From a bacterium (lineage in GTDB: Bacteria; Vulcanimicrobiota; Xenobia; RGZZ01): 13,147 bases of DNA. Position numbers and translations under genes: made by a program. The stretch is taken from NCBI GenBank assembly GCA_021782195.1, contig JAJXVI010000016.1, positions 1 through 13,147 of the forward strand, given 5' to 3'. Positions 1 to 13,147 of this stretch are shown piece by piece. The stretch's first letter is position 1. Every line of letters begins with the position of its first letter. The notes under the pieces were generated by a model that did not search any database, had not been told where the DNA came from, and worked only from the letters and a program-made list of their open reading frames with translations.

Positions 1-455
1 ACACGCCCGTGCTGATGATCACCGCGCGCGATACCCTCGACGACAAGATTCGTGGACTCGATACCGGGGCCGACGACTACATCGTCAAGCCGTTCGAGAT
101 GGGCGAACTGCTGGCGCGTATGCGTGCCCTGCTGCGTCGCGCGGCGGTTCCCCGGGAGCAGTTGCGCGTTGAAGATCTGACGCTTGACGTGGTGGCGCGG
201 CGCGCGTGGCGTGCCGGGCGCGCCATCTCCCTGTCGACCACCGAGTCCACCCTGCTGTCCTGCTTGATGCGCAACGCCGGTCAGGTGCTGACCCGTTCCG
301 CCCTGGTCACGCACGTATGGGACTATGACTTTGGCGGAAACGAGAACAACCTCGAGGTGTACATCAGCTACCTTCGCGCGAAAATCGACCGCGGACACGC
401 GCAGCCCCTCATCCATACCGTACGCGGGGTGGGATACCGCATGGGATCTTCGTGA
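1..455 (+). CDS. OmpR/PhoB-family response regulator, 3' part (5' end outside window)
   Basis: This is the C-terminal ~150 residues of a DNA-binding response regulator. The frame is open to the left edge (first full codon at 3), so the GTG at 9 is internal. The end of the receiver domain is visible as LMITARD, GADDYIVKPFE (the conserved receiver Lys is in KPF) and the linker LLARMRALLRR. The phospho-accepting Asp lies outside the window. A winged-helix effector domain follows, ending in the usual hallmarks: an ENNLEVYISYLRAKID recognition-helix region and a HTVRGVGYRM wing. The protein should act as a cytoplasmic dimeric transcription factor phosphorylated by the next gene's kinase. Its stop codon overlaps the kinase GTG start in GTGA (452-455), so the two are translationally coupled. 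The likely target is the promoter of this same efflux cluster (inference). Closest general types are QseB/PmrA/CzcR-like; I cannot pick one. Confidence 0.95.
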   Translation, partial: TPVLMITARDTLDDKIRGLDTGADDYIVKPFEMGELLARMRALLRRAAVPREQLRVEDLTLDVVARRAWRAGRAISLSTTESTLLSCLMRNAGQVLTRSALVTHVWDYDFGGNENNLEVYISYLRAKIDRGHAQPLIHTVRGVGYRMGSS

Positions 456-1948
456 AATTGAAGTCGATGCGCCTGCGACTCGCGCTGGGCTTTACGCTCG
501 CCATCGGGATCGCGACGGTGCTGGGTTGCGTCCTGCTGGCCCGTTACGCACGTGCCACCCTGCGCCAGGAGGCGGATGCACTGCTCGGGCGTGCCCTGAA
601 GCGTTTGCACACCGAGCAGGAGGAGGCCGGCCAGGGGCTTGCGGCACTTCGAGCGGCCGAGCGGCAGGTCGACGAACCGTCGGTGGTATTTGTCGTGCTT
701 GACGCGCGTGGACGGATCCTCCAGTCTTCCTCTCGTCATTTTGCGAATGTTCTGGGTGGCATCCTGCGTTCCCCGAGCACCCAGCTGAAGCTTCCCCAAA
801 CCGGCGTACCCGCTTTTGTCGGGAACACGTCCCGCTTTCGTGTGAAGACCGATCGGTTTGGTCCCTACACGGTGATGGCCGCACTCTCGTGGTCGTCCAA
901 TGAGCGCGTGACGGAGCGCCAGGAGCGCCTGCTCGGCCTGCTTGCCCTGCTTGTGTGGACCTGTGCCGGAGCTGGCGCGTGGTTGCTGGTGGGTCGCGCG
1001 CTGTCTCCCATTTCCGCATTTATATCCGAGGTGCACCGATTTCCCGTGCACGTTCCCATTGCGGCCGCTTCAGGCGCTTCCTCAAATCAGTCGGGCGCTG
1101 CCGGGGGAGTCGAGGCAAAGGTGCCGATGTTGCGTCCCTCGTCGGACGATCACGAGATTGTGCAACTCGTGGACACTTTAAACGGGCTCCTTGCCCGCCT
1201 GGCGGCGGCTTCCGCCGCGCGTGGACGTTTCTACGCGGCTGCCTCTCACGAACTGCGCACGCCGCTTCAGGCGCTGAGCGGTCACCTGGAACTGGCGCTT
1301 TCACGCCCACGCAGCGCGGAGGAGTATCGCGAACTGGTCGGGGAGGCGCTTGGACAGACCCGGCGGCTTACGGGGCTCGTGCGCGATCTGCTGGCACTGC
1401 ACCGCGTCGAGAGCGGGGAGGCGCCTCCTCGGTCGCGCCTTGATCTGGGGCAGGTCACGCGAATGGTTCTCGACGCGCTTTCCGAGACGATCGCGCAGCG
1501 CCACCTGCGACTCGAGTGCGTGTTTGCTGATTCGGTCTGGATTGACGCTTCTCCAAACTACTTTGAAATGGTTGCTCGCAATCTGCTCGACAACGCGGTG
1601 CGGTACACACCGGAAGGTGGAGACGTCCGCGTGACGCTGCAGGCTTCTCCGCCCGCGCTGGTTGTTGAGAACTCCCTCTTCGCACGTCCGGCCGCGTCCG
1701 CGACGGTTTCCGAGAGCGCACGCGCGTCGACGGAGCAGACGTCGGAGACCGGCGCGCCATCCGACGAGAGCCTCGTGTCGGACGCGGGGCGTTTTGAACC
1801 GTTTGCCCGCCGCTCCCGAGGAAGTGGCGGCAACGGGCTGGGTCTTTCGATCAGTCGTGCCGTGGCTGAGGCCAGCGGTTGGAATCTTTCACTTCAAGGA
1901 CAAGGGGGATGTGTACGTGCACGTCTTGAATTCGCGACGCCACACTGA
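452..1948 (+). CDS. Sensor histidine kinase with degenerate ATP-lid region
   Basis: Membrane sensor kinase of 498 aa, partner of the upstream regulator. From the N-terminus: transmembrane segment at about residues 7-29, a periplasmic sensor of about 125 residues, a second transmembrane segment at about 160-183, and a HAMP-like linker with a Ser/Ala/Gly-rich insertion (about 205-228). The dimerisation domain has the H-box ASHELRTPLQAL, with the phospho-accepting His at about residue 266. The ATPase domain has the N-box NLLDNAVRYTPEGG (Asn 377 and 381), an F-box-like RFEPFARR (447-454) and the G2 box GSGGNGLGL (457-465). The usual G1 box (DxGxG) is absent: the sequence reads VVENS (404-408), followed by about 39 Ser/Thr/Glu-rich residues. 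The GTG start is chosen for the 4-nt overlap with the regulator and because it gives a normal N-terminus. Signals are unknown; metals or toxic compounds exported by the adjacent pump are the natural guess. Confidence 0.93.
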   Translation: MKLKSMRLRLALGFTLAIGIATVLGCVLLARYARATLRQEADALLGRALKRLHTEQEEAGQGLAALRAAERQVDEPSVVFVVLDARGRILQSSSRHFANVLGGILRSPSTQLKLPQTGVPAFVGNTSRFRVKTDRFGPYTVMAALSWSSNERVTERQERLLGLLALLVWTCAGAGAWLLVGRALSPISAFISEVHRFPVHVPIAAASGASSNQSGAAGGVEAKVPMLRPSSDDHEIVQLVDTLNGLLARLAAASAARGRFYAAASHELRTPLQALSGHLELALSRPRSAEEYRELVGEALGQTRRLTGLVRDLLALHRVESGEAPPRSRLDLGQVTRMVLDALSETIAQRHLRLECVFADSVWIDASPNYFEMVARNLLDNAVRYTPEGGDVRVTLQASPPALVVENSLFARPAASATVSESARASTEQTSETGAPSDESLVSDAGRFEPFARRSRGSGGNGLGLSISRAVAEASGWNLSLQGQGGCVRARLEFATPH

Positions 1949-3428
1949 CCGGTTACCCGGATGGTGTTTTCGTCTGATCCGACCCGGGGAGCGCTCCCGA
2001 CATTTTCTCAGCCTGGTGGCGCTTACCGTGCTTCTCCTGGGCGCCGGAGGCTGTCACTCCCGGGCGTCGGGGGACGACCCCGCGGCGAGTGCTTCTGCCG
2101 ATGCCGTGCATCCCACCGTGGAAATGGCCGTGGCTCGCTGCGGAGCGATCGAGCACGTTGACAGGCTCAGCGGTCAGCTCGTGCCATTGCCCGATCAGGA
2201 GGCGGCGGTGAGTCCGCTCGTGAGCGGCGTGATCGACCGCGTGTACGTGCGTTTCGGCGAGCAGGTGAGACGCGGCCAGGTCATCGCGCATCTCTCCACG
2301 GCGACGGTCGACGCACAGGTGCGTCAGGCGGAAGCCACGCTCGCAGGGGCCCAGGTTGCCGTGCGTCAGGCGATTGCGAATGCGACCCAGCAGCGTGCCC
2401 AGACCCGTACCGCGATTGCCCAGGCCAGGGCGGCGGTCTCGGCCGCACAGGCCAATGTGGACGGTGCCCAGGCGACGCTTCGCGCGAACCGCGCCGCACT
2501 GGCGACCGCCCGCCAGAACCTGGAGCGCACCCGGAGCCTGGTGCACGGTGGCGTGGCCTCCCAGCGCGACCTTGAACTGGCGTCGCTCGGTGTCGACACA
2601 GCGCAGGCCGGAGTGACCTCCCAGGAAGCGACGGTCTCCGCGCTACGAGACACGTTGCGTGGAACCCGGCAGGCGCTGGAGGCGGCTCAGGCTGCGGTGT
2701 TGCAGGATGAGGTCAAGCGCCAGAACGTGGAAGTCGCGCGCCAGCAACTCTCAAGCGCGGTCGGGGCGCTGCGAGGTGCCGTGGCACAGAAGGCCTTTTA
2801 TACCCTGATGGCCCCCTGTGACGGGCAGGTCATTGCCGTGCGGGCGAACGTGGGAGAGACGGTTGACCCTTCACGGGTCGTGGCCCTGATTGCGAACCTT
2901 TCGACGCTGCAGTTGCAGGTGGCCGTTCCGGTTGAACACGCCGCCGAGGTACACGCCGGTCTGCAACTGTATTTCAAGGTGGCGGACGCCCCGGGACACA
3001 TTTTTCACGCGAGGCTCGGGGTGGTTGGAGGCGCGGCTGATGCGGCCTCGAGCACCGTTACGGCCACGGCTGAGGTCGCGAATCCAGACGGTCTGTTGCA
3101 CAGTGGCACGGTGGTCTCCGTGCATGTGGTCCTCGCGCGTCACGAGCGTACCGTGCTCGTTCCCGACAGCGCCCTGTTGACTTCGAAGGCGGGCACACAG
3201 GTGTTGCTGATCGGTCACGGGGACACGGTGCACGTCGCACCGGTGCATACCGGTATTATCGACGGCGGATGGGTCGAGGTTCTTGACGGTGTGAAGGCGG
3301 GCGACCGCGTGGTGGCAAAGGGCGGGTACGGACTGCCTGACGGTACGCGGGTGGTCGTTGCGAATGCAACATCCCCTGCCGCTTCAACGGCTTCCCCGGC
3401 GCCGTCATCGTCGGGAGGCGCGTCGTGA
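1917..3428 (+). CDS. RND efflux periplasmic adaptor (membrane fusion protein, HlyD family), probable lipoprotein
   Basis: Adaptor that links an inner-membrane RND pump to an outer-membrane channel. The frame is open far upstream of the real start because it overlaps the kinase. I chose GTG at 1917, about 8 nt after an AAGGGGG ribosome site; GTG 1911 and TTG 1926 are alternatives. This gives about 503 aa with an Arg-rich start, a hydrophobic stretch (FLSLVALTVLLLGAGG) and Cys46, a plausible though imperfect lipobox. Two lipoyl-type halves flank a hairpin: AAVSPLVSGVIDRVYVRFGEQVRRGQ (about 94-120) and YTLMAPCDGQVIAVRANVGETVDP (about 295-318). Between them lies a long Ala/Gln/Arg-rich coiled coil (about 132-290) that would contact the outer-membrane factor. 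Beta-barrel and membrane-proximal domains follow, ending in a Ser/Ala/Pro tail. The stop overlaps the pump's start by 4 nt. Substrate cannot be read from the adaptor. Confidence 0.92.
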   Translation: MHVLNSRRHTDRLPGWCFRLIRPGERSRHFLSLVALTVLLLGAGGCHSRASGDDPAASASADAVHPTVEMAVARCGAIEHVDRLSGQLVPLPDQEAAVSPLVSGVIDRVYVRFGEQVRRGQVIAHLSTATVDAQVRQAEATLAGAQVAVRQAIANATQQRAQTRTAIAQARAAVSAAQANVDGAQATLRANRAALATARQNLERTRSLVHGGVASQRDLELASLGVDTAQAGVTSQEATVSALRDTLRGTRQALEAAQAAVLQDEVKRQNVEVARQQLSSAVGALRGAVAQKAFYTLMAPCDGQVIAVRANVGETVDPSRVVALIANLSTLQLQVAVPVEHAAEVHAGLQLYFKVADAPGHIFHARLGVVGGAADAASSTVTATAEVANPDGLLHSGTVVSVHVVLARHERTVLVPDSALLTSKAGTQVLLIGHGDTVHVAPVHTGIIDGGWVEVLDGVKAGDRVVAKGGYGLPDGTRVVVANATSPAASTASPAPSSSGGAS

Positions 3429-6400
3429 CGGATTTTGCGTGGCGCTATCGCAAGGCCGTCCTGACGCTGGTTTTCCTGCTCACGGCGATCGGCATCTACT
3501 GCGCGCGTGTCCTTCCCGTCGCCATCTTTCCGCAACTCACGGTGCCGCGAATCGTGGTCAGCGCGGACGCGGGCGATCTCCCTGTGTTCACCACGCTTGC
3601 GCAGGTGACGCGTCCACTGGAGGCCGCCGCGAGCACGGTCTGGGGTGTCACGCGGGTGGCGTCGACCACGAGCCGCGGATCGGCGGAGATTGACGTCACG
3701 TTCGCCTGGGGCTCCGACATGCAGCTCGCGTTGCAGCGCATGCAGGGCAAGGTGGCCCAAGCGCGGACGGTCCTGCCGGCCGGCACGAACGTTCGCGCGG
3801 TGCTGATCAATGCGTCGGTCTTTCCCATCATGGGCATCAGCCTGACCGGTCTGGATCCCGCAACCCTGCACACCCTGGCCGAGTACACGGTGCGTCCGCG
3901 GCTTGCGCGACTCCCTGGCGTGGCGCAGATTCGTGTGACCGGTGGTGACGTTCCGGAGTTCCTCGTGGCTGTGCGCCCGGCAGCGCTGTCGGCGCGCGGC
4001 CTGACAATGCAGGATGTCGAGAACGCGCTGGCACAGGCGAACAACATCGCCACCGTCGGTCACTTCCCGTACGCGTACCATCGCTACGAGGTCCTGGTGT
4101 CGGGATTGTTGCGCAACGCTGACGACATCCGCAACGTCACCATCGCGGTGCACGGGCATGCAGTCCCGATTCTCGTGCGCGACGTGGCCGAGGTGACGAG
4201 GAGCGTGGCTCCCCGAACGGTGCTTGCGAGCAGCGGAGGCCAGCCCGCCACGGTGATCAATGTCGTTCGCCAGCCTCAGGCCAACACGATTGCAGTGGCC
4301 CAGGAGGTGCGGAAGGCGTTGCGGGATATGCGCTCCAACCTGCCCCCTCTACTCAAGACCCAGGTCTTCTATGACCAGTCGCAGATTGTCTCGGAGTCGG
4401 AGTCATCGGTGGTGGAATCCATCGCGGTGGGTGGCGTTCTGGCGCTCGTGGTGCTCATGGGCTTTCTCGGTAATGCGCGCGCGGCTGCGGTTGTGCTCTC
4501 GGTGTTGCCCCTGGCGCTTCTCATCACGCTGGGGTTCATGCGGCTGATGGGACAGACCCTCAACATCATGACCCTTGGAGCGCTTGCCGTTGCGCTTGGC
4601 CTCGTCATCGACGACGGCATCGTGGTGGTTGAGAATATCTTCCACGAGCTCGAACACGGTGCCTCGCGACGTGAGGCGGTGCGCAGCGGGGTTCGGGGGA
4701 TCACCGCGGCAATGTTCGGATCATCGGTCACGACCATGGCGGCCTTCATGCCGTTGACGCTCCTGAGCGGCGTGACCGGTCAGTTCTTTACGCCGCTGGC
4801 GCTGGTCATGATCGTGACACTTGCGGTGTCGCTGGTGCTCTCGATGGTGGTTGCGCCGATCCTGGCGACCTGGCTTCTGCCGAAGACTCGCCCGAAAGAG
4901 CGAAAGCGTGGGGGGTTCATGGACCGCCTCGGCGGATGGTACACGCAACTGCTCCACCTGAGCCTTCGTCATCGCCTGGTCGTGCTGGGCCTTCTTGTGC
5001 CGCTGCTTCTGCTTGACTTCGTGGTGGCAAAGCATCTCCAGACCGGCTTCTTTCCCGAGTTTGACGAGGGCGCCTTTGTCATCGACTACCACATGCCGTG
5101 GGGCACATCGCTGACCGAGACCAATCGCGCCGCACTTGAGGTGGAGAAGTTGTTGGGCCAGACGCCGGAAGTTGCGGCCTGGTCACGCCTCACCGGCGCT
5201 CGTTCCGGTTCAGGCCTCGAACTCACGGAACCGAGCCAGGGTGACATCCTGGTGCGCTTGAAGTCACGGCGTGAGCGTTCGGCTGATGAAATCATGTCGG
5301 ATGTCCGCCGTCGCATCGAAGCGAAGATTCCGGCAATTCACACCGATTTTGCCCAGATCATGCAGGACGGAATCGGTGACATCGCGGGCTCACCGTCCCC
5401 GATCGAGGTGAAGATCTTCGGCAACGACATGGCGACGCTGATCACGCTTGCACGGAAGACCCAGTCCATCATCAGCAAGATTCCGGGTGTCGTGGAACCG
5501 AGCGATGGTGTTGTGAACAGTGGTCCGGAAACCATCGTGCAGGTGAACGGCCCCCGCGCGGCCCATTTCGGGCTGACGACCGACTCGGTGACTTCTGCGG
5601 CTGCTGCAGCCCTCAATGGCATCGTTTCAACCTGGGTGCAGGAAGGGGAGCAGAAGGTGGGCGTGCGCGTAAGAGCGGCCGGGGAACTTGAGCGCATGTC
5701 GCCCGACCGACTTCCCGACGTGCGCATTGCGGCTCCACTGGCGGTCGCCTCGGGCGCGCCGGACGCAGGCGGCACGGTTCCACTCCGAGCTGTGGCCACC
5801 CTTGAGACGAACCCTGGGAGCACCGAGATCCGACGCCAGAACCAGCAACAGATGGTGGCCGTGACCGCGCGTCTGGAAGGGCGCGATCTCGGAGGCGGCA
5901 TGGCCGACGTGCAGGCTGCCCTGGGCAAGAGCTTGCGTCTGCCTCCGGGCTATTCCATCGAATACGGCGGGCTGTACGCGAGTCAGCAGGAGTCTTTTGC
6001 CGAACTCGGACGCGTGCTGGCGCTGGCTGTCCTGCTCGTGGCCATGCTGCTGATGGTCTGGTTTCGGTCGTTTCGCGAGATGTTTGCACTTCTGGCCGCG
6101 GCACTGCTCTCAATGAGTGGCGTGCTGCTCGGACTGTTCGTGACCGGAACTCCGCTCGACATCGCTTCCTACACCGGGGCCATCATGATCGTCGGGATTG
6201 TGACGGAGAACGGTATCGTGCTGTTCGACTTCTACAATGAACTGCGCCGTCAACGCCTTCCTGGCGAAAGCGCGGTGGCGGCCATGGAAGAGGCGGGTCG
6301 AATGCGGTTGCGCCCGATCATGATGACGACTGTGGGTGCCGTGCTCGCACTGTTCCCGCTCGCCCTCGGGTACGGTGCCGGCGCCGCCATGCAGAAGCCT

Positions 6401-6511
6401 CTCGCGATTGCCGTCATCGGAGGATTGAGCGTATCGATGGCATTCACCCTGGTGGTGGCCCCGGTGCTGCTGCTCTCGTTCGGTGGCGGGCCGGTGGATG
6501 ACGTCGACTGA
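3425..6511 (+). CDS. RND-family efflux pump, inner-membrane permease subunit
   Basis: Proton-driven RND transporter of 1028 aa, the usual length for the family. It should trimerise in the inner membrane and work with the upstream adaptor. The GTG start overlaps the adaptor stop (GTGA) and has GGGAGG six nt upstream. Visible features are TM1 (FLLTAIGIYCARVLPVAIFPQ), a large periplasmic porter domain, TM4 with GLVIDDGIVVVEN (Asp396 and Asp397), a second porter half, TM10 with GIVTENGIVLFDF (Glu928), and TM11 with RLRPIMMTTVGAVLALFPLALG. The double Asp is typical of drug-type HAE pumps, whereas GRDLGGG, GGLYASQQ and the TM10 Glu recall heavy-metal CusA/CzcA pumps. The substrate class is therefore open. 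No TolC-like gene lies in the window, so the channel is either upstream or shared. The last 262 nt are overlapped antisense by the next gene's frame. Confidence 0.96.
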   Translation: MTDFAWRYRKAVLTLVFLLTAIGIYCARVLPVAIFPQLTVPRIVVSADAGDLPVFTTLAQVTRPLEAAASTVWGVTRVASTTSRGSAEIDVTFAWGSDMQLALQRMQGKVAQARTVLPAGTNVRAVLINASVFPIMGISLTGLDPATLHTLAEYTVRPRLARLPGVAQIRVTGGDVPEFLVAVRPAALSARGLTMQDVENALAQANNIATVGHFPYAYHRYEVLVSGLLRNADDIRNVTIAVHGHAVPILVRDVAEVTRSVAPRTVLASSGGQPATVINVVRQPQANTIAVAQEVRKALRDMRSNLPPLLKTQVFYDQSQIVSESESSVVESIAVGGVLALVVLMGFLGNARAAAVVLSVLPLALLITLGFMRLMGQTLNIMTLGALAVALGLVIDDGIVVVENIFHELEHGASRREAVRSGVRGITAAMFGSSVTTMAAFMPLTLLSGVTGQFFTPLALVMIVTLAVSLVLSMVVAPILATWLLPKTRPKERKRGGFMDRLGGWYTQLLHLSLRHRLVVLGLLVPLLLLDFVVAKHLQTGFFPEFDEGAFVIDYHMPWGTSLTETNRAALEVEKLLGQTPEVAAWSRLTGARSGSGLELTEPSQGDILVRLKSRRERSADEIMSDVRRRIEAKIPAIHTDFAQIMQDGIGDIAGSPSPIEVKIFGNDMATLITLARKTQSIISKIPGVVEPSDGVVNSGPETIVQVNGPRAAHFGLTTDSVTSAAAAALNGIVSTWVQEGEQKVGVRVRAAGELERMSPDRLPDVRIAAPLAVASGAPDAGGTVPLRAVATLETNPGSTEIRRQNQQQMVAVTARLEGRDLGGGMADVQAALGKSLRLPPGYSIEYGGLYASQQESFAELGRVLALAVLLVAMLLMVWFRSFREMFALLAAALLSMSGVLLGLFVTGTPLDIASYTGAIMIVGIVTENGIVLFDFYNELRRQRLPGESAVAAMEEAGRMRLRPIMMTTVGAVLALFPLALGYGAGAAMQKPLAIAVIGGLSVSMAFTLVVAPVLLLSFGGGPVDDVD

Positions 6512-7419
6512 GCGTCTGCGGTCTGGCCGCGTTGAACGCGTTGCACGGTGTACCCTCTCTGGCGAAGCTGGGCAACGATTCCGCGCGGCCCCACCATGTG
6601 GCCAGCGCCGACGGCCACGAAGAAGGTGTCGCGCTGCTGCAGAAGGCCCACGATTTTCTCGGTCATTGTTGTATTGCGCTGGTAGAGCAGTGCGTTGTAG
6701 AAGGAGCGGAGTTCCGGGTCCTTGCGGGCGTCGGCCGTGATCACGCGATTGATCCCGTCGGCGTCTCCTGCCTTCCAGTATTGCACGAGCTGTTTTGCCT
6801 CCGACGCGATGTCGTTCACGCCGAGCAGGGTCAGGCGCAGTTGCATGTCCTGCTGCTCTGGAGTCTGACCGGCCAGCAACCCGATCTGTTCTTGCGCGGT
6901 TTCGAGTGCGAGGACGCGCTTGTGGTCGGTGCCGGCTTCGCTCAGGAAATGACGGTCAAGTCCGAGCGTCGGGCTCAATCCCTGCCGCTGCATCTCGCCG
7001 ACGTCGATCATGACGTTGACCAGCCACGGCTTGAGGCGGGCCAGTGTGGAGAGCGCCAGGCCGCGACGCCTGGCATACGCGGTCAGCGCGGCTTTCGTCT
7101 TCGGCGAGAGATGGGCCCAGAGGTTGTCAGTTCCCGTATAGAGCCCTTCTTGCTGGGTCAGGGTCGCGATCTGCGCCTGGTCGGAAGGGGAGTCGTTCAG
7201 TTCCACCACGAGCGTGGACGACTTCAAGAAACATTGCTCGATTTCGGGGGGGATCGGGTAGAAGGCCGAGGGCACAAGATGGATGGTACCCAGCAGGTAT
7301 GCAGTGGCTGTTGGGGACTGTACCTTCCACAGAAAGTCGGGCTGGGCACATGCCGGGGAGATTCCGACGGCGAGCAGCCACAGGAGCACGGCGAGGCGTG
7401 ACATCAAGCGTGTTCTCAT
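6250..7419 (-). CDS. TraB/GumN-family secreted protein (metalloprotease-like fold) with antisense-encoded C-terminal tail
   Basis: The product belongs to the TraB/PrgY/GumN/TIKI superfamily. ATG at 7419 gives 389 aa, with ATG 7404 (Met6) as alternative; neither has a strong ribosome site. The N-terminus is a signal peptide (RLAVLLWLLAVGISPACA, cleavage probably before QPD), so the protein is probably periplasmic. Family landmarks are YLLGTIHLVP (His47), STLVVELN (Glu73), LGLDRHFLSEA, LALETAQEQIGLL and VGAGHMVGPRGIVAQLRQRGYTV (His274). These positions correspond to the putative metal site proposed for TIKI-like members; function in bacterial GumN homologues is unsettled. The recognisable domain ends near residue 295. 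From about residue 304 the frame continues without a stop through the 3' end of the convergent RND gene, adding about 86 Ser/Thr/Pro/Ala-rich residues unlike the domain. That tail may be real or may reflect a lost stop or a sequencing frameshift. Confidence 0.85.
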   Translation of the reverse strand: MRTRLMSRLAVLLWLLAVGISPACAQPDFLWKVQSPTATAYLLGTIHLVPSAFYPIPPEIEQCFLKSSTLVVELNDSPSDQAQIATLTQQEGLYTGTDNLWAHLSPKTKAALTAYARRRGLALSTLARLKPWLVNVMIDVGEMQRQGLSPTLGLDRHFLSEAGTDHKRVLALETAQEQIGLLAGQTPEQQDMQLRLTLLGVNDIASEAKQLVQYWKAGDADGINRVITADARKDPELRSFYNALLYQRNTTMTEKIVGLLQQRDTFFVAVGAGHMVGPRGIVAQLRQRGYTVQRVQRGQTADAQSTSSTGPPPNESSSTGATTRVNAIDTLNPPMTAIARGFCMAAPAPYPRASGNSASTAPTVVIMIGRNRIRPASSMAATALSPGRR

Positions 7420-7439
7420 GAGATGGCCGTTCGACGGTG

Positions 7440-7484
7440 CCGGCCCGTGCCCTTTTCGGTCGGCCGTGGAAGGGCACGGGCCGG
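7440..7484. repeat. Perfect 15-bp inverted repeat (hairpin) between two minus-strand genes
   Basis: The left arm CCGGCCCGTGCCCTT (7440-7454) is exactly complementary to the right arm AAGGGCACGGGCCGG (7470-7484), with a 15-nt loop. It lies downstream of the fusion gene stop (7585) and about 20 nt before the TraB-family start (7419). There is no T-run after the stem on either strand, so it is not a canonical intrinsic terminator. It may still stop or stabilise the upstream transcript, or be a protein-binding dyad. It sits 6 bp from the parS-like palindrome. Confidence 0.85.
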
Positions 7485-7490
7485 GTTGAC

Positions 7491-7508
7491 GGGTTTCACG
7501 TGAAACCC
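7491..7508. other. parS: Putative parS site (ParB-binding centromere-like palindrome)
   Basis: The sequence GGGTTTCACGTGAAACCC is an 18-bp perfect palindrome. Its central 14 bp, GTTTCACGTGAAAC, is identical to the core of the widely conserved chromosomal parS consensus TGTTTCACGTGAAACA; only the outermost T/A pair is G/C here. It is intergenic, in the 165-nt gap between two minus-strand genes. By family knowledge, ParB loads on such sites as a CTP-dependent clamp, organises the origin region and recruits condensin, and parS sites usually cluster near the replication origin. No parA or parB gene is in the window. Identity is by sequence match only. Confidence 0.82.
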
Positions 7509-7584
7509 CTGCGTCGCCTGGCGCGCCCCCACGTCCGTGTCGGAGTGCCGTTAACTGCGAATCCGCGCGGTATCCGGGTGGCCT

Positions 7585-9441
7585 TCAGCCTGTCGTTGCC
7601 GTGAGCAGGCGTTCCGCCAGCGCGTAGCCATCCACCGGCCAGAACTCTCGGGGGCGCGGTTGAAGGCTCCAGGTGCCGGCACGGCAGGAAGCGATGAGCT
7701 GTTGCCATCGCCGGGGAACGGCATCCCTGCCGTATACGGCACCGAGCAATGCACCGGCGATCGCGGCGTTGGTGTCGGTGTCCCCGCCGGCGTTCACGGT
7801 GCGAATCACCCCTTCTTCCAGTGACGGGGCGTGCAGCAGTTGATGAAAGGCGTTCTGGAGGGCGTGGCGGACCCACCCCTGGCTACGGGACGGATCCTCC
7901 GGACCGCCCCCGTGTGCATCTTCAATCCAGCGGATCACGTCCGGCGCGGCGCCGGAGCGTGCCCAGGCGAGTGCGTGCTCGTACACCTCGCGCGGGGACG
8001 CGCCGTGCCGCACGGCGAAGCCGATGGCAACCGTGAAGACGGCGCACGCGTCCTGGCAGTTGCGGTGGGGGTGCGTGAGGGCGCTGTCGAGACGGGCCAG
8101 GTTGGCGCGGGCGTCGTCGTTGAGGAGGTGGGAGAAGATCCCCAGCGGACTGATGCGCATCAGCGATCCGTTGGCCTGGCTGTCTTGAGAGGCGGCCGAC
8201 GTGGCCGCATCAACCGCGTTGTCTTCCTCAATCCGCGTGGCGGTGGTTGCACGGGCGGGAGGAATCGCACGCAGGGCGCGCGCCGTGGTGGCTCCACGGT
8301 CGAACGGAGAGGAGTCGTACCAGTGCCGGTAGAGGAGGGCGGTTGCGCCAGGGCGGTACTCGCGGTGCATGACGAGTCCCCGTGCCAGCATCAGCGCCAT
8401 CTCGCTGTCGTCGGTGGGCTGACCTGCCCAGGTGTTGAAGGTCCCCCCGTTCGCAAGGTCGCGCACGCCGTTTGGGTATTGCCGGGCGATATCGCTCGCG
8501 GATCGGAACTCCACGAGGCTGCCGAGGGAGTCGCCGGCGAACTGCCCGAAAAGGCACCCCTGTGCCCGCCGCAGCAGATCGGCCTGACGGACCGAGTGTC
8601 CCCGCTGCGGTTCGACGAGGTCGAGCGGGGCGCGCACCTCGGGCGTGGTGGAGCGCACGGTCGACCAGGGGCGCGCGGCCAGGTTGCTCGCCACGTCCCG
8701 TCCACCGCCGAAGCAGGCGCGGGCCGAGACGCCGGCGCGTTCGTCGTAGCGGATGGGATCGCCACGCTCGTCGAGGAGTTCGGCGCCAGCCCCGCGTAGC
8801 AGCGCGTGTCCGCCTGCGAGGTCCCACGCGCGGGGTGCGTTCATCGACACGCCGCCCACCGTGTCGCCCGCAGCCGTCAGTGCGAGACGATACGCGATTC
8901 CGGGCACTCCGATGAAGCGGGCGGGTGCGATGGCTGCGTGGTTGACGGCCGCACGACGCTGCGCCGAACAGGTGAGGGCGACCAGATCGAGCGGGCCGGG
9001 TTCGGAGTGGAAGGCGAGCGGATTGACGGGGACGCCGTTGCGCTCCAGTGGTCCGCAGCCTTCGGCCCACGCGATCAGATCGCCGTCGTCGTCAGGGGCG
9101 GCGAACGCGTAGATCACGCCGAGCATAGGACGCCCGTCGACCACCGCGCCGATGGACACGGTCCCACCGCGGATTCCGTGTTCGTGGGCTTTCGTGCCGT
9201 CGAGCGGGTCGACGAGCCACCAGCTGCGTTCGGGTGCCACGGGCGACTGCTCGCCGGTCTCTTCGCCGAGGAATCCCCAGGTGGGAAAGGCGGACAGGAG
9301 GCGTGCGCGGATCTCGCGTTCGACCGCAACTTCGGTCTCGTGCGTGACGCGGGGGTCGGGCGACGCATGAAAGTCTGCGCGGAGTGCAGGGCCAGCCGCG
9401 AGCGCGGCGGCCACGGCAGTTGCGAGGGCATGGGCAAGCAT
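7585..9441 (-). CDS. Fusion protein: inositol monophosphatase-like domain plus ADP-ribosylglycohydrolase
   Basis: This is a 618-aa two-domain enzyme. Residues about 1-255 resemble the Mg-dependent inositol monophosphatase/CysQ/FBPase superfamily: GFLGEETGE (Glu60, Glu61), WWLVDPLDGT (Asp78, Asp81) and APRAWDLAGGHALLRGAGAEL (Trp206-Asp207). Residues about 290-618 are an ADP-ribosylglycohydrolase (DraG/ARH family): GCLFGQFAGDSLGSLVEF, QPTDDSEMAL (Asp344, Asp345), NGSLMRISPLGIF, HPHRNCQDACAVFTVAIG and VNAGGDTDTNAAIAGALLGAVYG (residues 552-559). Metal ligands of both families appear intact. One short linker (about 256-289) joins the domains. The start is supported by GGGAGG nine nt upstream. There is no signal peptide, so it should be cytosolic. 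Removing ADP-ribose from a target and dephosphorylating a related phosphorylated nucleotide is a reasonable joint role, but this is inference; the substrate of neither half can be read from sequence. Confidence 0.9.
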   Translation of the reverse strand: MLAHALATAVAAALAAGPALRADFHASPDPRVTHETEVAVEREIRARLLSAFPTWGFLGEETGEQSPVAPERSWWLVDPLDGTKAHEHGIRGGTVSIGAVVDGRPMLGVIYAFAAPDDDGDLIAWAEGCGPLERNGVPVNPLAFHSEPGPLDLVALTCSAQRRAAVNHAAIAPARFIGVPGIAYRLALTAAGDTVGGVSMNAPRAWDLAGGHALLRGAGAELLDERGDPIRYDERAGVSARACFGGGRDVASNLAARPWSTVRSTTPEVRAPLDLVEPQRGHSVRQADLLRRAQGCLFGQFAGDSLGSLVEFRSASDIARQYPNGVRDLANGGTFNTWAGQPTDDSEMALMLARGLVMHREYRPGATALLYRHWYDSSPFDRGATTARALRAIPPARATTATRIEEDNAVDAATSAASQDSQANGSLMRISPLGIFSHLLNDDARANLARLDSALTHPHRNCQDACAVFTVAIGFAVRHGASPREVYEHALAWARSGAAPDVIRWIEDAHGGGPEDPSRSQGWVRHALQNAFHQLLHAPSLEEGVIRTVNAGGDTDTNAAIAGALLGAVYGRDAVPRRWQQLIASCRAGTWSLQPRPREFWPVDGYALAERLLTATTG

Positions 9442-9727: not shown

Positions 9728-10636
9728 TCAGAGCCCTTCCTGGTGACTGGCCCGCAGCAGGTTGCGGTAGACGCCGTATACGCGGCCAGCCCACTGCGTG
9801 CTCGTCGAATATCCTCTGCCGTGTCCGTTTGCGGCGCGCAACTGCTGGAGGATGGGCTTGCTCTCATTGCTGCCGAAACGGTGGCGCAGATTCTCGAAGG
9901 CCGTGGCCGCTCCGTTGATCTGTTTTTCGAGGCCGCTGAAGACGGGATTTCGGACCGAGTTGTTCGGATCGTTGTCGTAGGCACCCACGCCGGCCATTCC
10001 CTTTACGCCAACACCGGTGCGTCCCCACTGCGTTTCGAGACCGGGAATGGCCGCGAGCAGGAGCGGGTCCATGTGGTGTGCCTGAGCCGTGCGTACAATG
10101 GACTCCCCGATGGAATCGGGCAACCCCTTCGCACCGTTGGTCTGGATATATCTGGTCAGAAAATCCGCTGTTTTCTGGTCGTGTTTGTCGAGGGGGGCGT
10201 TCTGCGGCGTTGTTGCGGGTCTGGCAGCATCTGAGGGGGCGGATGCACCGGGTGCGGAAACATGGCCGGTTGAGGACGAATCGCGGGGGGAGGATACAGC
10301 CTGCGTGGCCGCGACCGGACCGTGGCTCGTGGCGGGAGCGTCGCTTGCTGCGGCGGGCGGATGCGTGGCCGCCTGAGAGGACGGGCCGTGGGCCCAGGCC
10401 GCTACGCTCGTGGCGAGCGGGTCGCTCGCGTCTCTTTCGGTTTGCGGGGACGTCTTCGAGCGCGCGTCTGTGGAAAGATGCGTGGTGTCCGCCGGGGCAT
10501 TTGCCTGCGTGCCGGCGTGGCGCTGGGTGTTGGGGAGAGCGGGCGCGACAGGGGCGGCGTTTGCAGTTTCTCGGGTTTCCGTTGGCAATCTGCCCGTGTT
10601 GATCTGGTCGACCGCGTTGATGCCGTCGAAGCTCAT
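9728..10636 (-). CDS. Putative peptidoglycan hydrolase (glucosaminidase/lysozyme-like) with long disordered N-terminus
   Basis: The reading frame is open far upstream, but the real start is ATG at 10636, preceded by AAGGGAGGGAG about 8 nt away. This gives 302 aa. Residues 1-150 are low-complexity, rich in Ala, Pro, Ser and Thr, with no signal peptide or membrane segment. Residues about 152-297 form a globular domain: DFLTRYIQTNG, SIGESIVRTAQAHHMDPLLLAAIPGLETQWGRTGVGVKGMAGVGAYDNDP, LEKQINGAATAFENLRHRFG and WAGRVYGVYRNLL. The helix with DPLLLAAIPGLETQWG resembles the catalytic-Glu region of glucosaminidases (GH73, ESxWG) and lysozyme-like transglycosylases; Glu201 would be the catalytic acid. 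An unstructured, polar N-terminus without a Sec signal suggests export by a type III or flagellar apparatus (inference; none is in the window). The 286 nt downstream contain the direct repeats. Family level is moderately sure, export route unsure. Confidence 0.75.
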   Translation of the reverse strand: MSFDGINAVDQINTGRLPTETRETANAAPVAPALPNTQRHAGTQANAPADTTHLSTDARSKTSPQTERDASDPLATSVAAWAHGPSSQAATHPPAAASDAPATSHGPVAATQAVSSPRDSSSTGHVSAPGASAPSDAARPATTPQNAPLDKHDQKTADFLTRYIQTNGAKGLPDSIGESIVRTAQAHHMDPLLLAAIPGLETQWGRTGVGVKGMAGVGAYDNDPNNSVRNPVFSGLEKQINGAATAFENLRHRFGSNESKPILQQLRAANGHGRGYSTSTQWAGRVYGVYRNLLRASHQEGL

Positions 10637-10689
10637 CAGAATCTCCCTCCCTTGTTTCGCGTCAGGAACTGTCTTTTGCCGACTCAAGG

Positions 10690-10719
10690 TTGACATCAGG
10701 CGCAAGCCCGGAATTGAAT
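10690..10719 (+). promoter_or_regulatory. Possible sigma-70 promoter
   Basis: A perfect -35 hexamer TTGACA (10690-10695) is followed, after 18 nt, by TTGAAT (10714-10719), which matches 4 of 6 bases of TATAAT. It points towards the FGGY kinase and would leave a leader of about 300 nt containing the inverted repeat. The weak -10 makes this tentative. Confidence 0.3.
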
Positions 10720-10810
10720 GGTTCGAGACGAACACAGTACTTGTTTCTTTGCGCGCCAGATCCCTGCGACTTTTCGGTGCGCATCGGGCCATTGCGGGGC
10801 GACGCCGGAG

Positions 10811-10856
10811 GTGCGATCCTCCAGTGCGTACTTGGGATCGCAGTGGAGGATCGCAC
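10811..10856. repeat. Imperfect 18-bp inverted repeat in divergent intergenic region
   Basis: GTGCGATCCTCCAGTGCG (10811-10828) and CGCAGTGGAGGATCGCAC (10839-10856) are complementary at 17 of 18 positions around a 10-nt loop. There is no T-run, so an intrinsic terminator is unlikely. It could be an operator for the divergent genes, a leader hairpin in the kinase transcript, or a dispersed palindromic element; copies elsewhere in the genome would decide. Confidence 0.85.
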
Positions 10857-11029
10857 TGGTGAAGCGTGCAGTGGATTTGCGTGGCCGGGTCGTCGTCTGG
10901 AAGGAGGCTCTCGTGGGATGCACGGAAACCTCGGAGTCGGGTCATTTTTGATGGCGGCGCTCGCGCTACTGTGGAAGTGAGGAGCGGCGGCGACGTTGCA
11001 ATCACGTCTGTGCCGCACAGGAGGAGAGA

Positions 11030-12373
11030 ATGCTGCAAGGACAATCCCGACGCCGGCGATCGGTCGGCATCGACGTGGGATCGACGTCGATCAAAGGCGT
11101 GTGTCTGGAAGATGGTAATCTGACCTGTCTTGCGTCGCGTCCCCTTCCGCCGGCCGTCGCGGGAGAGGCGGGTTGGCACGAACTGGATCCCACGCGAGTG
11201 CTGGCAGAGGTTCGTGATGTTCTCGACGCAGTGGCGAGCGACGGGGTTGACGCGATAGCATTCACCGGGCAGATGCACGGCGGTGTCGTGACGGATGCGC
11301 GGAACCGTCCGGTTTCGTCGATCGTCACGTGGCAGGATCGCCGCTGCACCGATCTTGTGCGCGAGATTCGCGGTCGTACGCAGCCGTCCGCGTGGGATGG
11401 TCTCGGTTGCGACCTCCAGAGCGGCTTCCTCGGAGCAACCGTGGCCTGGTTCGTGGAGCGCGGTTTCCTGCCAGAGAGCGGGTGGCGCATCCACGGTATC
11501 TACGAGTGGCTGGCCGGTCAGTTGCTGGGCGTGGACCCGTACACGGACCCGAGCAGTGCTGCCGCCTGGGGCCTGTACGACATTCGCCGGTGCAACTGGA
11601 ATCGAGAGGCGCTGGAGGCCTGTCACGTGGCGGATGCCGCGTTGCCTCTTCTCGTCGAGAGTGGAGATCCGGTTGGCCGGGCGACGCTCGGGAAGGCGAC
11701 GGGGGCGCTTGTGGTCAGCGGTGTTGGCGACACGCAGGCCAGCTTTCTGGGTGCGGGCTGTGCGTCCGGCGACCTGGGGGTCAACTTCGGCACCGGTTCT
11801 CAACTGCTCTGGCTTTCCGACACCTTTGTCCGCTACGCCGGGACCGACGTACGTCCTTTTTTCTCGCGTTATCTCGTCACGGTACCGACGCTGGCCGGAG
11901 GTGCGGCGTACGCCTGTCTGGCTGACTTCTACGCCGACGTCCTGCGGGTCTTTGGCGCTGGCGTTCCTCCTCGCGAACGCCTCTACCAGGTCATGAACCA
12001 CGAGGCAGCCGTTGCTCTGTGCGAAGGGGTTGTGGTGTCTCCGTTCTTTAACGGGAGTCGTACCCACGGGGAGACGCTGCGTGCTTCCATCGGAGGGCTT
12101 GACGCACGCAACTTCCGGCCGGGCAACGTCACGCGCGCGTTGCTCACGGGGTTGGTTGAGGAACTGGCAGAACCGTATTTTGCAATCTCTCCCCCTCGAC
12201 GCCATTCCGGCCTGGTTGGTAGCGGAAACGGCCTTCGACGAAACGAGGTGCTTCGAACCATCGTAGCGGAACGGTTCAAGTTGCCCCTGCGAATGTCGCC
12301 GCACGAAGAGGAGGCTGCCTTCGGAGCGGCGAGAATCGCTGCGGGGGACGTCCCGAGATGGGCCGATGGATGA
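11030..12373 (+). CDS. FGGY-family carbohydrate kinase, sedoheptulokinase-like
   Basis: Cytosolic sugar kinase of 447 aa. It starts at ATG 11030 with AGGAGG five nt upstream. The N-terminal phosphate-binding loop reads VGIDVGSTSIK (12-22). TGQMHGGVV (79-87) followed by VTWQDRRC (99-106) resembles sedoheptulokinases (SHPK) more than xylulo- or gluconate kinases. The second half has VVSGVGDTQASFLGAG, with catalytic-base candidate Asp234, then VNFGTGSQLLWL, VRPFFSRYLVTVPTLAGGAAYACLADF and a C-terminal HEEEAAFGAA. Length is close to the roughly 480 aa of SHPK. The expected reaction is ATP-dependent phosphorylation of sedoheptulose to sedoheptulose 7-phosphate, feeding the pentose phosphate pathway; substrate is inferred from motif resemblance only. 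No transporter or other sugar gene is adjacent, so it appears to be a stand-alone unit. It converges on the SUMF1-fold gene with a 26-nt gap. Confidence 0.88.
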   Translation: MLQGQSRRRRSVGIDVGSTSIKGVCLEDGNLTCLASRPLPPAVAGEAGWHELDPTRVLAEVRDVLDAVASDGVDAIAFTGQMHGGVVTDARNRPVSSIVTWQDRRCTDLVREIRGRTQPSAWDGLGCDLQSGFLGATVAWFVERGFLPESGWRIHGIYEWLAGQLLGVDPYTDPSSAAAWGLYDIRRCNWNREALEACHVADAALPLLVESGDPVGRATLGKATGALVVSGVGDTQASFLGAGCASGDLGVNFGTGSQLLWLSDTFVRYAGTDVRPFFSRYLVTVPTLAGGAAYACLADFYADVLRVFGAGVPPRERLYQVMNHEAAVALCEGVVVSPFFNGSRTHGETLRASIGGLDARNFRPGNVTRALLTGLVEELAEPYFAISPPRRHSGLVGSGNGLRRNEVLRTIVAERFKLPLRMSPHEEEAAFGAARIAAGDVPRWADG

Positions 12374-12399
12374 CCCCCGATGTGTGTGGCGCGCTCGGG

Positions 12400-13147
12400 T
12401 CAGTTGGCGTCGCCCGCGACGCGGAATCCTTCCGTGAGTGGACACGCGCGTGGGCTCAGGTAGCTGCGGTGTGCGCAACGGAACACCTCGGGGATGCCGT
12501 TGAAGAACGATCCGCCGCGGATCACGCGTCGGTCGTCAGGGCTCGCGGGGGCGCTTTCGCGTCGGTCAGTGGAACTCCACGGATAGGGTGCGTATCGCGA
12601 GGAGCACCACTGCCACACGTTTCCCGCCATGTCGAGGCAACCGAAGGGCGAGGCTCCTCGAGGGAATGAACTCACGGCGACCGGATCGAATCGGTGTCGA
12701 CCGACGCTCGTGCAACAGTACGAGGGGTTGAAACTGTTTCCCCACGGGTACTGTCGTCCGTCGGTTCCACGTGCCGCGTATTCCCACTCGGCCTCGGTGG
12801 GCAATCGTAGACCGGCCCACCGCGCGTAGGCCTGCGCATCGTACCACGACACGCATCTTACCGGGGCCTGTTCCCCGTTGGTTGCGGCGTAGTGTTGCCA
12901 GTCGCCGGCTGCTTTGTGGCCGGTCGCGGTCACGAACTTGCGAAACTGGGCGTTGGTTATGGGCGTTCGTGCCATGAAGAACGCATTCACGTGTACTCGA
13001 TTGGCGGGCAACTGGTCGTCGACCATCGAAGCGTCGCAGGCCGAGTTGTACTGGCGCGCCAGTGCCAGCCCCTCTTGCGCCTGTTGTGCGGTCGAGCCCA
13101 TCGTGAAGACGGCTGCGGGCAGACGGATCAGCACGGTGCCGTCGATA
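12400..13147 (-). CDS. SUMF1/FGE-fold protein, C-terminal part, lacking the FGE catalytic cysteines (5' end outside window)
   Basis: The frame is open to the right edge, where it reads IDGTVLIRLPAAVFTMGS. This corresponds to the usual domain opening (DGMVxIPxGxFxMGS), so the GTG at 13134 is internal and the true start is beyond the window. Domain hallmarks in order: ARTPITNAQFRKFV, VRCVSWYDAQAYARWAGLRLPTEAEWEYAARG, YPWGN, FGCLDMAGNVWQWCSSRY, RVIRGGSFFN and GFRVAG at the C-terminus. The fold is that of formylglycine-generating enzyme and relatives such as EgtB and NirV. In true FGE the stretch after RGGS carries two redox Cys (of the type [20 protein letters not shown]). Here it is RGGSFFNGIPEVFRCAHR, so that pair is missing and sulfatase activation is unlikely. 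The role is therefore unassigned; such domains are often fused to kinase or signalling domains, which could lie upstream. Confidence 0.9.
   Translation of the reverse strand, partial: IDGTVLIRLPAAVFTMGSTAQQAQEGLALARQYNSACDASMVDDQLPANRVHVNAFFMARTPITNAQFRKFVTATGHKAAGDWQHYAATNGEQAPVRCVSWYDAQAYARWAGLRLPTEAEWEYAARGTDGRQYPWGNSFNPSYCCTSVGRHRFDPVAVSSFPRGASPFGCLDMAGNVWQWCSSRYAPYPWSSTDRRESAPASPDDRRVIRGGSFFNGIPEVFRCAHRSYLSPRACPLTEGFRVAGDAN

Follow-up and report, generated by a model that had tools for sequence, protein, structure and literature searches.

A probable chromosomal parS site, away from its usual companion genes, in a little-studied bacterial lineage

Introduction

Bacteria separate their newly copied chromosomes with the help of parS, a short DNA landmark at which ParB loads. 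According to two reviews, ParB first binds at parS and then spreads along adjoining DNA; it also activates ParA and brings in SMC, and parS lies mostly near the origin (PMC7333895, PMC7022226). The chromosomal parS consensus is given as TGTTTCAC-GTGAAACA and the Noc-binding site (NBS) as TATTTCCC-GGGAAATA; according to the same source, ParB positions including 173, 179, 184 and 201 determine the preference for parS or the Noc site, and R173 and G201 are absolutely conserved in ParB orthologs (PMC7383237). In Caulobacter crescentus parS is written t/cGTTt/cCACGTGAAAca, with a variable outer base, and the consensus of B. subtilis and Burkholderia is TGTTNCACGTGAAACA (both in PMC7022226). A literature search on parS in Eremiobacterota gave no specific result among the papers listed.

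Here we analyse a palindrome in a 13,147-nt stretch of DNA, hereafter the window. The window corresponds to contig C598; the draft genome that contains it has 3,535,393 bases in 705 contigs (61% complete, contamination estimate 0.93%). The palindrome's own sequence, the single ParB found in the draft and a comparison across the phylum were used to judge whether it is a parS site.

Results

The original prediction described a perfect 18-bp palindrome that encloses the exact 14-bp parS core, lies between genes and ends in an outer G/C pair instead of the common T/A; all of this was recovered in our reading (Table 1). The two arms (7491-7499 and 7500-7508) are 100% complementary in the repeat finder, with extension ending at 18 bp, and the outer bases read G..C. 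The gap is flanked by minus-strand ORFs (7419-6250 and 9441-7585), each with Pfam domains; the site stands upstream of the TraB/GumN start, at 74 bp, and past the ADPRH stop, at 79 bp. Gene positions were set by a simple script that chooses the best among overlapping ORFs, and the mechanical ORFs touching sites, i.e. 7876-7496 in the window and 4515-5078 on contig C107, were set aside. The former, on the minus strand, extends into the palindrome and has no other support; its overlap with the longer ADPRH gene led us to discount it as spurious.

Table 1. Coordinates of the palindrome, its gap and the adjoining features in the window.
Feature	Position	Strand	Basis
TraB/PrgY/GumN family protein, 389 aa, domain residues 29-294	6250..7419	-	PF01963, E 3.3e-69
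Intergenic gap with the site, 165 bp	7420..7584	no strand	ORF bounds
Perfect 15-bp inverted repeat, 15-nt loop, 6 bp from the palindrome	7440..7484	no strand	repeat finder
Perfect 18-bp palindrome GGGTTTCACGTGAAACCC with parS core 7493-7506	7491..7508	no strand	sequence match and repeat finder
Inositol monophosphatase (IMPase) and ADP-ribosylglycohydrolase (ADPRH) fusion, 618 aa	7585..9441	-	PF00459 and PF03747

The core GTTTCACGTGAAAC has one exact copy in the window (7493-7506), and a mismatch scan found no second place in the window at three or fewer mismatches. Shuffled windows gave a mean of 0.47 matches at that tolerance, with at least one match in 73 of 200 shuffles; because shuffles so often match at three or fewer mismatches, it is exactness alone that is significant at the level of the window. 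A first-order Markov model, taken from 50,210 bases on nine contigs of the genome, predicts 6.1e-5 exact 14-mers in the window, in line with the claim that far less than one was expected, and 0.0165 in the 3,535,393 bases of the draft. The draft as a whole contains two (on C598 and C107), and not the many scattered copies that the original prediction had named as speaking against parS; the reversed control is absent. At one mismatch there are four more places (C297, C368, C461 and C539), compared with approximately 0.63 expected and none for the control. At two or fewer mismatches the genome has 17 places versus 10 for the control, so this level is little informative. The sites on C297 and C461 are both GTTCCACGTGAAAC and lie past the end of an aminotransferase gene and of an HU gene respectively, and the exact site on C107 is located between the ends of two convergent genes. 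The C539 place is inside a small ORF and that on C368 is in a doubtful ORF; since both fall inside ORFs, they are probably not parS.

A single HTH_ParB match was found in this 61% complete draft, on contig C60, where the gene adjoins parA. The protein has the PF02195, PF17762 and PF23552 domains (N-terminal, HTH and C-terminal respectively), and its N-terminal domain carries the GERRWR motif, presumably the CTP-binding region of ParB. In Caulobacter numbering, which was derived from the conserved motif and not from an alignment to Caulobacter, its specificity positions read R173, T179, N184 and G201, along with G170, K171, S172, N178 and R204; when aligned with Noc (7nfu), it has R/T/N/G where Noc has Q/K/K/R. 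The gene order on C60 is mnmG, rsmG, a helicase gene in the opposite direction, parA and parB, the first three being what we take these genes to be from sequence resemblance. The mnmG-rsmG-helicase order is also present in G001.

Across 58 genomes, sampled up to phylum level and including that of the window, the exact 14-mer occurs in 33 and the control pattern in none (0/58); a ParB match was obtained in 52. Of the 33 site-bearing genomes, 25 carry the site on the same contig as parB, 23 bp to 6.4 kb from that gene, and of the 44 exact sites in total, 32 are no more than 10 kb away from parB. At several loci, e.g. in G009 and G022, the exact site is found between rsmG and parA. Among the 25 of 58 genomes without the exact 14-mer, at least six carry a site with one mismatch no more than 3 kb from parB (G019, G037, G045, G047, G050 and G055). 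Likewise, GTTCCACGTGAAAC lies within 3.2 kb of parB in G041, G042, G055, G057 and G019. Eight of the 33 site-bearing genomes carry none of their exact sites on the contig of parB (G000, G001, G002, G004, G020, G023, G026 and G027), the first three being those of the window's own family. In two of the eight, G023 and G027, which represent one other family, the exact site adjoins rsmG and mnmG, and that of G027 is ∼7.4 kb from dnaA. The sole exact site of G026 (L114, position 9921) is inside a predicted ORF on a contig other than that of parB, with nothing linking it to the origin. Because the motif tracks the par or the mnmG/rsmG region in most site-bearing genomes, its distribution is as expected of parS.

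The four sampled genomes of family f11 (G024, G028, G031 and G035; 4/4) are without an HTH_ParB match and without exact parS; judged from these sequences, the family may have lost ParABS. G021 and G030 also have no ParB match.

Flanks were read for 35 of the 44 exact sites. The outer pair is T..A in 19 of these 35, and at least one of the two bases is present in 27 of 35, with variable bases at the others; in the family of the window, none of four sites has T..A. Given that T..A is found in 19/35, the G..C pair of the window site is within normal variation.

The family to which the window belongs comprises three genomes, with exact sites on C598 and C107, on G001:C79 and on G002:C71, all four of them intergenic. 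In none of the three genomes (0/3) does parS share a contig with parB. No match to parA, parB, mnmG, rsmG or dnaA was found on the exact-site contigs, which are short, and none of these coincides with any of seven DnaA_C matches; site, parB and best dnaA contigs of the family range from 3.7 to 33.6 kb. Comparison of 17 proteins of C598, C60 and C107 with the entire site contigs of G001 and G002 yielded no match (E 0.001), and hence no gene order common to the exact sites: the C60 proteins alone have counterparts, on the parB contigs, and none of the C60 proteins had a match on C598 or C107. A diverged parS on the family's parB contigs was sought and not found, the best places having 4 mismatches in C60 (8.1 kb, with no parS-like place at three or fewer mismatches), G001:C169 and G002:C217. 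The interval before parA or parB in this family contains no parS-like inverted repeat; one 82% palindrome is present at the parA start of C60. The two contigs with a relative of the ADPRH protein, G001:C59 and G002:C141, are without an exact site (best 2 and 4 mismatches respectively). In this family, parS is apparently uncoupled from the par/mnmG locus.

In C60 and G001:C169 the reversed helicase fills the rsmG-parA interval, and in G002:C217 it is beside parB, with a parA remnant alone between them. Among the relatives' loci searched, the reversed helicase was matched in the G001 and G002 loci alone. As a large helicase-like gene reversed between rsmG and parA it occupies 1935-4406 of C60 (L017) and 3917-6289 of L111. 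In G002:C217 (L112, 1559-2164) ∼36 residues near the parA end are recognisable (2057-2164, overlapping the parB start, E 1.7e-4); because these are the only recognisable ones, this parA seems truncated or misassembled.

The hairpin at 7440-7484, before the TraB/GumN gene, has a folding z of -4.8 to -4.9. No exact copy exists elsewhere in the draft genome, the matches being its own two arms, and we rejected it as a genome repeat, since places at two or fewer mismatches on both strands number 20 versus 32 for the control. No Rfam match was found in the window. The hairpin adjoins the parS palindrome by position; a functional tie between the two is a candidate at most.

Relatives of the IMPase/ADPRH fusion are found in G001 (54%, C59) and G002 (49%, C141), and its best listed match in a search of 5.8 billion proteins, with 7995 candidates scored, is 55%. 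No true relative of the TraB/GumN protein turned up in 18 other genomes of the lineage; its matches elsewhere are at most 40% identical, the three named by organism being Betaproteobacteria, Collimonas and Oscillospiraceae. The C-terminal tail of its ORF (6250-6511) overlaps the final part of the RND pump gene in antisense, and for this reason translated matches were misleading: the apparent relatives in the lineage were discarded, each listed match covering the tail alone, antisense to RND genes. On the plus strand (9-6511), genes for a response regulator, a histidine kinase, a membrane-fusion protein and the RND pump follow one another. The best relative of the pump listed in the 18 other lineage genomes is 41% identical; relatives in named genomes (26 loci) show 27-38% identity, and among plasmids the RND gene had no close match. 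An ORF of 916 codons on the minus strand (9728-12478) is without a Pfam match and overlaps an FGGY kinase gene in antisense; judged by eye, its last third alone (about 9728-10650) resembles a real gene.

Discussion

The palindrome at 7491-7508 is, in our judgement from sequence, very probably a chromosomal parS site. This call is made because the core is rare genome-wide, the ParB found has parS-type residues, and 25 of the 33 phylum genomes with the 14-mer have it near parB. Rarity, ParB residues and parB linkage in relatives likewise uphold the parS part of the original prediction. Its other part, a position near oriC, is plausible at most: in this draft, too fragmented at 705 contigs for placing sites relative to oriC, neither exact-site contig has parAB, mnmG/rsmG or a dnaA match.

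Chance is an extremely improbable source of the palindrome: any long genome contains some palindromes, but the expected number of exact cores is 6.1e-5 for the window and 0.0165 for the genome, and the control pattern is found in 0/58 genomes. It is also very unlikely that the palindrome is a transcription-factor operator for the TraB/GumN gene, unrelated to ParB. Such a role would suit its place upstream of the TraB/GumN start and beside a strong hairpin, but the exact sites have no downstream gene in common (that of C107 is between convergent gene ends, and those of G001:C79 and G002:C71 have other neighbours), the sequence tracks parB across the phylum, and a sigma-70 consensus scan of 7300-7700, which is blind to other promoter types, detected no promoter-like pair.

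A true parS could also have come in on a contig or segment from another organism or replicon, by binning error or horizontal acquisition, and would then not belong to the chromosome of the C60 ParB. The TraB/GumN protein, with no true relative in the 18 lineage genomes and matches of at most 40% elsewhere, the RND pump, whose best listed relative in those genomes reaches 41%, and an assembly in 705 pieces that is 61% complete would all agree with a foreign origin. Nevertheless, we consider it improbable: G001, another genome of the family, encodes a 54% relative of the neighbouring 618-aa fusion, near the best listed match of 55%, the contamination estimate is 0.93%, and by tetranucleotide distance the window comes 13th among 24 contigs sampled from the genome, with a smaller distance than all seven G001/G002 contigs tested. 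Metagenome bins are usually built on composition, and the tetranucleotide evidence is therefore partly circular. Assignment of the window to this bin is favoured, not proved.

A more far-reaching reading of the family is that the centromere left the par operon: the helicase occupies the rsmG-parA interval, the parB contigs of three genera have no site at three or fewer mismatches, and active parS would lie at unrelated, unlinked places, perhaps far from oriC. We put this forward tentatively, and think it rather unlikely. Should complete genomes bear out a departure of parS from the par/mnmG locus, the family would be a natural experiment on whether parS must lie near parAB for segregation or near oriC alone.

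With the palindrome as parS, the C60 ParB dimer would recognise the two half-sites GTTTCAC via its helix-turn-helix domain. ParB would load at the site with CTP, close and slide onto the flanking DNA; ParA would then move the ParB-coated region, which would also load SMC. We infer binding, CTP loading, sliding and segregation at this site by analogy with the described systems; by the same analogy, the assembled part of the chromosome would have two to four ParB loading sites, this one among them. The TraB/GumN gene, 74 bp away, might also be affected: a P. aeruginosa study deals with repression at promoters next to parS3 and parS4 (PMC5521831). A complete-looking ParABS with the universal parS core is now placed in a poorly studied lineage, and parB together with the exact sites offers a usable anchor for the phylum.

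Taken as parS, the window site is an ordinary one of established type, in a little-studied lineage and away from its usual companion genes. The NBS is likewise a palindrome, equal in size, and a ParB paralogue binds it, but its bases 1 and 6 are A and C where the window site has G and A, and Noc has Q/R at the positions where the ParB found in this 61% complete draft has R173/G201. We rejected a Noc-binding site on this account, i.e. the bases are G/A and the sole ParB found has R/T/N/G and not Q173, K179/K184 and R201. Caulobacter crescentus parS has its core in common with the window site; all five Caulobacter sites are in the ori domain, whereas the window site is known from its contig position alone. 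The GTTCCACGTGAAAC core of C297 and C461 fits the consensus TGTTNCACGTGAAACA of B. subtilis and Burkholderia, as given in PMC7022226. Compared with chromosomal parS, the window site has outer G..C instead of T..A and stands off the parAB contig, but it is identical at 14 of 14 core positions, with G at base 1 and A at base 6, the two positions at which parS differs from the Noc site.
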